DNA of 64,000 nucleotides from positions 620,001 through 684,000 of the forward strand of contig BPKJ01000001.1 in the NCBI GenBank assembly GCA_026005075.1, in the 5' to 3' direction. The position numbers were made by a program, and so were the translations under genes. Each line of letters opens with the position of its first letter. Position 1 is the first letter of the stretch. This document shows, piece after piece, positions 20,824 to 23,316 of the stretch. The DNA comes from Lysobacteraceae bacterium. Its GTDB lineage: Bacteria > Pseudomonadota > Gammaproteobacteria > Xanthomonadales > Xanthomonadaceae. Below the pieces are notes generated by a model that was not told the origin of the DNA, searched no databases, and was given only the letters and a program-made list of their open reading frames with translations.

Positions 20824-21459
20824 TCAGCGACGGCCGCGGGCGAGCAGACGTGCGCGCTCGAAGCGGTGCTCGGTACCGGCACGCAGGCGCGCGAGGTTGC
20901 TGCGGTGGGTGAACAGCAGGAACGACGCCGCGAGCAGGGCGAAGGGCAGCGCTGCCTGCGGCACCGGCCACGGCGAGAGCAGCGCGAAGATCGGCAGGCT
21001 GAGCGCGCCGAGGACGGTGGAGAGGCCAACAAAGCCGGTCGCGCCCAGCGTCACCAGCCAGGTGCCGAGGAAGGGCAGCAGGGCCGCCGGCCAGACCGCG
21101 GCCAGGCCGCCGATCAGGGTGGCCGCGCCCTTGCCGCCACGGAAACCGTGGAACAGCGGCCAGACGTGGCCGGCTACCGCGGCGAGCACGCAGGCCGGGG
21201 CCAGCCAGGCCGGCCCCGCATCGCCGAGCGCGCGGGCAAGCAGGCCCGCCAGCACGCCCTTGCCGACGTCGATCAGCACCACGCCCAGCGCGAACCGCCA
21301 GCCACGGGTACGCAGGGCATTGGTGCCGCCGGCATTGCCGCTGCCCAGGGTGCGGATGTCCACCCCCTGCCAGCGGCCGAGCACCAGCGCCCCGGACACC
21401 GAGCCGAGCAGGTAGGCCAGCAGCAGGCAGAGGACGGCGGGCATGGCGGAGGACGGCAT
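20824..21459 (-). CDS. plsY: Acyl-phosphate:glycerol-3-phosphate acyltransferase PlsY
   Basis: LGSVSGALVLGRW, LGSGNAGGTNALRTRGW, GHVWPLFHGFRGGKGAAT, LLFTHRSNLARLRAGTEHRF. Confidence 0.94.
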   Translation of the reverse strand: MPSSAMPAVLCLLLAYLLGSVSGALVLGRWQGVDIRTLGSGNAGGTNALRTRGWRFALGVVLIDVGKGVLAGLLARALGDAGPAWLAPACVLAAVAGHVWPLFHGFRGGKGAATLIGGLAAVWPAALLPFLGTWLVTLGATGFVGLSTVLGALSLPIFALLSPWPVPQAALPFALLAASFLLFTHRSNLARLRAGTEHRFERARLLARGRR

Positions 21460-21495
21460 CGCGGCAGCGCGCGCAGTCTAACCGCGTACGCGCCC

Positions 21496-23316
21496 TCAGC
21501 GCGCCACCTCGGTCTCGACCTGGGCGGCGACCACCAGGGTCCCCGGCCCGGCATGGGCGCCGATCGCCGGGCCGGTCTCGACCAGCCAGTCGCGGCTGAT
21601 CGGCAACCGCTGGCGCAAGGCGGCGAGCAGGGCCTCGGCCGCGGCCGGGGCATCGCAGTGGCCGACCATCACCCGCCACTGCGGTGCGGGCGGGAGACGG
21701 CGTTCGACGTAGCGCGCGAAGCGCTCCGGAATCCGCGCCCGGCCGAACAGCGCGGAGGCCACCCCCAGCCGTCCGTTGCGGCGGATCCGCGCGATCACGG
21801 TCAGGCCCAGCCGCTCGCCCAGCGGCAGCACCCAGGAAGGGATCCGGCCGCCACGCACGGCGTGGCCCACGTCGCTGGCGGCGGCGAAGGTGAAGGTGCG
21901 CGGCGCGAGCTCCGCCATCCGCGCCTGCACGTCCGCAAGGCCGGCCCCGCGCGCCGCGAGCTCGGCGGCGGCGAGGACCATCAGCGCCTGGCCGCAGGAG
22001 GCCTGGCGGCTGTCGATCACGCACACCCGCGAAGGACCGCAGCGCTCCGCCGCCGCCTCGGCGCTCTGCAGCGTCCCGCTGAGCGCGCGCGACAGCCCGA
22101 CGTAGACGACCTGCTCGGCGTAGCCCAGCAGCAGCTCGAAGCGGCGGCGGAAATCGCCCGGCGGCGGCTGCGAGGTCTGCGGCAGCGCCCCGCCCTCGCG
22201 CAGCCGACGGTAGAACTCCCGCGGACGGATCGACACCCGGTCGAGGAACTCTTCCTCGCCGAAGCTGACCCGCACCGGCACCACGTCGAGCGGCAGCTGT
22301 TCGACCAGCGCCTGCGGCAGGTCGGCCGCCGAATCGGTGACCACGGCGAGCTGCCCGCGTCGCTGCGCGGCGCGCATCTGGGCGCGCATGTCCTCGGCCT
22401 TGCGCGCGCTGACCTTGCCGAAGCGTCCGGCCAGTTCGAACAACGCCCCGGGCTCGGCGACGTGGGCATGCAGGCGCACCCGCTCCGCGGTGCCGGCCAC
22501 CACCACGCTGGCCGCACCGGCCGCCTCGACCGCCGCCCGCAGGCCGGCACGGTCGATCGCGTCTCCGGTCACCAGGCACTCGCTGCACCACGGCCGGCCG
22601 GCGTCGGCCTCCTCGTGCCAGTGTTCGGCGGCGAACTCGCGGGTCGCGTCGAGGCGGCCGGGGGCCGCGCCGATCTCGCGCCGCTGCACGAAGGCCTGGA
22701 TGCCCTCCACCAGTTCGAGGAAACCCTGCCCGCCCGCATCGACCACCCCCGCCTGACGCAGCACGGCGAGCTGCCGCGGGGTCTCGGCCAGCGCGCGTCG
22801 CGCGCGCTCCACCGCGCCCTCCCACCACCGCGCCAGATCCTCGGCCGGCTGCTGCAGACCTTCGGCAAAGGCCTGGATCACGCTGAGGATGGTGCCCTCA
22901 CGGGGCTGGGCGAGGGCCTCGCGGGCCTGCCGCGCACCGGCCTGCACGGCCGCGCCGAGCTGCCCCAGGCTGAGCACCCGCGCCTCGCCGACGGCCTGCC
23001 CGGTGCCGCAGAGGAACTGGGCGAGGATGGCTCCCGAGTTGCCGCGCGCGCCATCGATGGCATCGTTGGCAAGGGCACGCAGCAGCGCGCCGGCATGCCG
23101 CCAGCGGGTGCGCAGGCTGCCGGCCAGCATCGCCTGTGCGGTGAAGGCGAGGTTGCTGCCGGTGTCGCCGTCGGGCACCGGGAAGACGTTGATCCGGTTC
23201 AGTTGCTCGCGGCGGTCGACCAGCCGGCGCAGGCCGGCGATCAGCGCCCGCCGCATGCCGCTGGCGGCCACCCTGGGCTGGGCGCGGCCACGCGCATCCT
23301 TGGCTTGGGCATCCAT
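21496..23316 (-). CDS. DAK2 (DhaL/FakA-like) + DegV (FakB-like) fusion protein, predicted single-chain fatty acid kinase
   Basis: N-terminal LNRINVFPVPDGDTGSNLAFT, GARGNSGAILAQF, PREGTILSVI (DAK2); middle VRLHAHVAEPGALFELAGRFGKV; C-terminal AVVTDSAADLP, PQTSQPPPGDFRRRFE, GLSRALSGTLQSA (DegV). Confidence 0.88.
   Translation of the reverse strand: MDAQAKDARGRAQPRVAASGMRRALIAGLRRLVDRREQLNRINVFPVPDGDTGSNLAFTAQAMLAGSLRTRWRHAGALLRALANDAIDGARGNSGAILAQFLCGTGQAVGEARVLSLGQLGAAVQAGARQAREALAQPREGTILSVIQAFAEGLQQPAEDLARWWEGAVERARRALAETPRQLAVLRQAGVVDAGGQGFLELVEGIQAFVQRREIGAAPGRLDATREFAAEHWHEEADAGRPWCSECLVTGDAIDRAGLRAAVEAAGAASVVVAGTAERVRLHAHVAEPGALFELAGRFGKVSARKAEDMRAQMRAAQRRGQLAVVTDSAADLPQALVEQLPLDVVPVRVSFGEEEFLDRVSIRPREFYRRLREGGALPQTSQPPPGDFRRRFELLLGYAEQVVYVGLSRALSGTLQSAEAAAERCGPSRVCVIDSRQASCGQALMVLAAAELAARGAGLADVQARMAELAPRTFTFAAASDVGHAVRGGRIPSWVLPLGERLGLTVIARIRRNGRLGVASALFGRARIPERFARYVERRLPPAPQWRVMVGHCDAPAAAEALLAALRQRLPISRDWLVETGPAIGAHAGPGTLVVAAQVETEVAR

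Follow-up and report, generated by a model that had tools for sequence, protein, structure and literature searches.

A single-chain kinase-binder fusion adjoining plsY, a putative substitute for PlsX in Lysobacterales

The closest described counterpart of the protein reported here is the FakA-FakB fatty-acid kinase of Firmicutes. In Staphylococcus aureus, FakA comprises the ATP-binding domain FakA_N, the dimerisation domain FakA_L, which carries Cys240, His282 and His284, and FakA_C, which docks FakB and is itself a FakB-like domain without the pocket (PMC9136124). FakA_N and FakA_L together are catalytically active without FakA_C, the KM for FakB1 being raised from 0.09 to 0.99 μM (PMC9136124). 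In vitro, with no PlsX present, purified Bacillus subtilis FakA/B can drive the PlsY of Escherichia coli (PMC13400652). FakAB has been described in a review as a Gram-positive strategy (PMC10146087), and the Xanthomonadales (Lysobacterales) have been stated, after a 2008 review, to have PlsB and PlsC only (PMC11633183, PMC13400652), one of these two papers calling them an exception to universal PlsY.

The window analysed is a stretch of 64,000 nucleotides from a Lysobacteraceae bacterium (contig BPKJ01000001.1). A single 606-aa ORF on its minus strand (21496..23316) was originally predicted to hold a DAK2 kinase domain, a FakA-middle-like segment and a complete DegV domain, and all three were recovered with Pfam and NCBIfam. 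The DAK2/DhaL-type ATP-binding kinase domain, equivalent to FakA_N, spans residues 46-207 (22696..23181; Pfam Dak2 E 3.7e-34; Foldseek). It is followed by the FakA-like middle domain, equivalent to the catalytic and dimerisation domain FakA_L, at residues 243-315 (22372..22590; Pfam FakA-like_M 3e-11, above the Pfam cut-off), and by the DegV (FakB) fatty-acid binding domain at residues 323-598 (21523..22350; Pfam DegV 3e-59), which occupies the position of FakA_C. The DegV assignment is clear in both databases (Pfam DegV 201 against a cut-off of 27; TIGR00762 228 against 99.7, with the model matched completely). The YloV model was matched over positions 3-302 of 530 only, and the scores for YloV (TIGR03599, 252 against 396 bits) and FakA (NF038248, 148 against 975 bits) lie below the NCBIfam cut-offs. 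Pfam and NCBIfam detected no FakA_C docking domain in the chain, which past its YloV-like part is DegV. The predicted FakA-FakB fusion was therefore borne out as kinase, middle and DegV domains in one chain and not as a whole FakA, since FakA_C is gone and FakB stands in its place. As read from its sequence, the protein contains the components that make up a minimal fatty-acid kinase and would work like FakA without being a canonical FakA. The ORF runs from ATG 23316 to a stop at 21496 in a frame that is open upstream as far as GTG 23601, and ATG 23316 is a sensible start because most homologues align only from residues 11-16.

On the same strand, 36 nt beyond the fusion stop codon (21460..21495, as predicted), begins plsY, encoding a 211-aa acyl-phosphate:glycerol-3-phosphate acyltransferase (20824..21459) with 39% identity to E. 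coli PlsY (G3P_acyltransf 2.2e-43; TIGR00023 147.9 against a cut-off of 137.2). The PlsY motifs GSGNAG, GH.WP, GGKGAAT and HR.N are conserved in 19 family sequences, which were themselves picked by motif, and an alternative in-frame ATG lies five codons further in. No convincing terminator was found in the 36-nt gap, and the two genes are likely to form one transcript. A simple sigma-70 scan returned no promoter; the DNA is 72% GC. Downstream of plsY, on the same strand, are a birA-like gene of the biotin/lipoate-ligase family, a type III pantothenate kinase gene and a SPOR-domain gene, and upstream of the fusion lies a divergently oriented gene for an M90 peptidase, together with one for a Ctp-type S41 peptidase. 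The fusion ORF is not a chance reading frame, because 36 further genomes in a 100-genome family sample carry an orthologue (two in pieces), pairwise dN is below dS for the fusion and for plsY (some of the plsY figures taking in non-coding 5' sequence), and the two genes lie less than 1 kb apart in 92 of the 96 genomes of an order sample that carry both. The expected conservation of plsY linkage thus held in Lysobacterales and Wenzhouxiangella-like genomes and failed for Proteobacteria at large; linkage across Proteobacteria was rejected, the gene being mostly unlinked outside the order. Frame changes interrupt the fusion in two family genomes (G011 and G052), reflecting either assembly error or decay.

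The source genome (99.8% complete) encodes PlsY and PlsB. A family search gave no PlsX match in this genome or in any of the 100 family genomes, the same search matching 8 of 14 control genomes, and family searches of the source genome detected no second FakA or FakB. The family sample, which includes Rehaibacterium (Lysobacteraceae, Lysobacterales, formerly Xanthomonadales, in the NCBI taxonomy) and Lysobacter daejeonensis, contains PlsY in 38 genomes and the fusion in 37 of these 38, and the fusion never occurs there without PlsY. Among the 199 genomes of the order sample, the fusion was found in 99, PlsY in 102 and PlsX in 93; 96 have both fusion and PlsY and nine are discordant, three having the fusion alone (at least two of them cut by contig ends) and six PlsY alone. 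PlsX is missing from 46 of the 102 PlsY genomes of the order sample, and 44 of those 46 have the fusion; over both samples, the fusion is present in 73 of 76 PlsX-less PlsY genomes. Within each of four genera (g3, g6, g10 and g18) the fusion and PlsY come and go together. Fisher p-values for the co-occurrence are not to be read literally, because of shared ancestry and adjacency.

From these observations, the fusion probably phosphorylates free fatty acids, feeds the acyl-phosphate to PlsY and replaces PlsX in the PlsX-less lineages of Lysobacterales. The DegV domain would hold a free fatty acid, and the DAK2 and middle domains would move the gamma-phosphate of ATP onto its carboxylate, in cis or across a dimer, to give acyl-phosphate. 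PlsY, made from the next gene, would use this product to acylate glycerol-3-phosphate at sn-1. In PlsX-less Lysobacterales, including the source genome, the fusion would be the only recognisable source of acyl-phosphate, in the place of PlsX, and PlsY would open a path alongside PlsB for fatty acids that are recycled or exogenous. The earlier suggestion of a CoA/ACP-independent route for fatty acids is supported, and the absence of PlsX adds an argument which that suggestion did not have; it is the strongest argument that acyl-phosphate from the fusion feeds PlsY.

Several other arrangements of these genes were seen within the order and family. One family of the order sample (f172; for example G338, G356 and G363) includes 33 genomes with PlsX and without the fusion, only one of which (G348) has PlsY; the PlsX of that genome (loci G348:C1:2288920-2289889 and 535350-535871) is fragmented and contains an in-frame stop. 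A second, stand-alone DegV protein of about 315 aa (for example L133:304-1251, minus strand; Pfam 190 bits) occurs in many Lysobacteraceae and is not found in the source genome. The TSQP, SGT, RGGR and GAHAG motifs are missing from it, and its occurrence does not follow that of PlsY. Weak second matches to the fusion search occur in many family genomes (about 23-30% identity), and the one tested by Pfam was a stand-alone DegV.

In the class sample, 11 of 185 genomes gave a match to the fusion. Named relatives with the fusion include Arenimonas, Pseudoxanthomonas, Dyella, Dokdonella, Tahibacter, Wenzhouxiangella, Woeseiaceae and Steroidobacteraceae. In most Woeseiaceae, Steroidobacteraceae and neighbouring groups, exeA/gspB-like genes precede the fusion gene and the genome usually has PlsX as well. 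Outside the order the fusion regularly has just 5' of it an AAA ATPase gene of exeA/gspA-like type and a gspB-like gene, a conserved neighbourhood (L063, L070, L073, L079 and others) in which the gene names come from reading of the sequence and not from Pfam. A universal replacement of PlsX by the fusion was rejected, PlsX being present in 30 of 50 fusion genomes (examined via named loci, most outside the family). Replacement of PlsX is not the general role of the fusion, because outside the order the gene mostly lies apart from plsY and in most cases is accompanied by PlsX. The phylum-level sample was filled mostly with near relatives and is uninformative on other classes. A fusion with 34% identity, adjoining plsY, was found on a contig labelled Candidatus Neomarinimicrobiota (L109:5001-7380; GC 0.30) from a genome with no PlsX match, and represents either cross-phylum transfer or a mis-binned contig. 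In another gammaproteobacterium (G167:C7:14731-17139), neighbouring separate FakA-like (563-aa frame) and FakB-like (285-aa frame) ORFs appear from their sequences to be a split fatty-acid kinase outside Firmicutes.

In Woeseiaceae, Steroidobacteraceae and their neighbours the gene adjoins exeA/gspB-like genes and not plsY. This position, together with the presence of PlsB as another route to lysophosphatidate, would suit a fatty-acid kinase whose main product goes elsewhere, to a regulatory acyl-phosphate pool, the removal of toxic free fatty acids or the turnover of a signalling fatty acid, DSF for example, with PlsY as a minor consumer. Such a role is improbable, however, and in Lysobacterales the fusion is found without PlsY only in the three order genomes noted above and in none of the family sample. 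It is more improbable still that the fusion and PlsY are functionally unrelated chance neighbours, with PlsY fed by an unknown PlsX-like enzyme. A single deletion can remove adjacent genes together, and PlsX and the fusion are both missing from three genomes that have PlsY (G073, G336 and G397), which also counts against the main reading; in G073, which is listed as 100% complete, PlsY lies at G073:C4:430296-430838 and the birA-coaX-SPOR neighbourhood is kept. Against chance proximity, one genus (g23; G022 and G067) has retained both genes although they are unlinked, and dN is below dS for each.

The Mg/ATP aspartates and the DegV carboxylate pocket, on which the original prediction depended, are kept in an alignment of 23 orthologues retrieved by whole-protein search with no selection on residue motifs. 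The ATP/Mg site residues N43, D49, D51, T52, N93 and D193 are invariant and correspond by alignment to Asn32, Asp38, Asp40, Thr41, Asn82 and Asp185 of FakA, and C244, H283 and H285 of the middle domain are likewise invariant and correspond to Cys240, His282 and His284. In the DegV domain, T381, R491 and H588 are invariant and correspond to Thr62, the catalytic Arg173 and His270 of the FakB1 carboxylate network, the FakB1 numbering having been placed on the fusion by motif order and by spacing in B. subtilis DegV and not by direct alignment with S. aureus FakB1. S409 (Ser95 of FakB1) is Ser in at least 90% of the 23 orthologues; in a wider table of 95 sequences it is S in 69, T in 19, A in 6 and P in 1, so that T or A is found in a quarter, a point against the reading as a fatty-acid kinase. 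The 95 sequences were picked by the motifs DG.TG.N and RGGR, and claims of invariance therefore rest on the 23. The roles of these residues in FakA and FakB1, including Arg205 of FakB1 as a FakA-binding residue, are taken from earlier work (PMC9136124, PMC8892158). The Arg205 position is Arg in six DegV/FakB structures and F524 in the fusion, where the Arg173-Arg205 spacing is one residue longer than the 32 residues shared with B. subtilis DegV; it is non-Arg (F, L or other) in 92 of the 95 fusions. Replacement of this docking residue is as expected if docking of kinase and binder has become covalent.

An AlphaFold2 model of the fusion built from the 23-sequence alignment (pLDDT 85.5, pTM 0.82) was compared with known structures using Foldseek. 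Matches included S. aureus FakA_N (TM 0.93 by target, rmsd 1.3-1.5) and the DegV protein 2dt8 (TM 0.89 by target), DegV matches overall scoring 0.8-0.9. The full-length Streptococcus suis FakA 7w7h aligned over 612 columns, but its global fit was poor (TM 0.33-0.37), as hinged domains in the fusion would lead one to expect. DAK2 domains are relatives of dihydroxyacetone kinases, and family membership leaves the substrate unfixed, with the DegV carboxylate pocket alone pointing to a fatty acid; phosphorylation of some other lipid-like or hydroxylated molecule, with DegV as carrier, is nevertheless very unlikely, given that the FakA_L Cys-His-His residues and the FakB1 Arg173, Thr62 and His270 equivalents are all kept and that the nearest structures are FakA and fatty-acid-bound DegV proteins, not Dha kinases.

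The published statements that limit the order to PlsB/PlsC and FakAB to Gram-positive bacteria both need correction. Roughly one in two of the 199 order genomes carries PlsY, in nearly every case together with the fusion, and in many Gram-negative species of this group the fusion beside plsY appears to replace PlsX as the supplier of PlsY. No report of the fusion was found in the literature searched; the paper that first described Fak and the acyltransferase review of 2008 lay outside that search, so an earlier mention is possible. The fusion-plsY pair may have been common to Lysobacterales and Wenzhouxiangella-like bacteria, with PlsX then lost in Lysobacteraceae and several related families; this loss would have left PlsY dependent on the kinase. 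The pair would later have been lost jointly in many genera, which may explain the earlier PlsB-only records for the order. It is on balance favoured, with less assurance than the replacement of PlsX itself, that in PlsX-less Lysobacterales a single-chain kinase alone drives sn-1 acylation by PlsY, leaving PlsY cut off from acyl-ACP as a dedicated recycled or exogenous route parallel to PlsB, and that the fused architecture also illustrates how a FakB joined to the kinase could have given rise to FakA_C. If active, the fusion would represent a PlsX-independent use of PlsY in nature and a fatty-acid kinase made of one protein, in which the ratio of binder to kinase is fixed at 1:1, and would offer a clean genetic system for the role of acyl-phosphate in Gram-negative cells with PlsB as well. 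The fixed chain would be useful for structural work because the association of FakA and FakB is weak.

Compared with known systems, the fusion resembles the FakA-FakB of Firmicutes (S. aureus FakA/FakB1, S. suis 7w7h, B. subtilis YloV/DegV) in its ATP, Mg and Cys-His-His residues, in the Thr, His and catalytic Arg residues of its DegV pocket, and in the predicted conversion of ATP and fatty acid to acyl-phosphate. It differs in being one chain instead of two proteins, with FakA_C replaced by FakB (the fusion presumably providing the tether that FakA_C normally gives) and the docking Arg205 changed, in having a single fixed binder instead of several exchangeable FakBs, and in adjoining plsY in a Gram-negative host. 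As in the PlsX-PlsY pathway, PlsY would make lysophosphatidate from acyl-phosphate, but PlsX, which forms acyl-phosphate from acyl-ACP, is absent from the source genome and the family sample, and acyl-phosphate would derive from free fatty acid and ATP. Stand-alone DAK2 proteins and Dha kinases (DhaL/DhaK) share the kinase fold and weak profile similarity (PRK14479, dak_ATP), whereas the fusion has no DhaK, has middle and DegV domains, and scores far under the Dha kinase cut-offs. The acyl-CoA and acyl-ACP synthetases FadD, Aas and AasS belong to another family and produce a thioester for PlsB/PlsC, unlike the fusion, for which the predicted product is an acyl-phosphate for PlsY.
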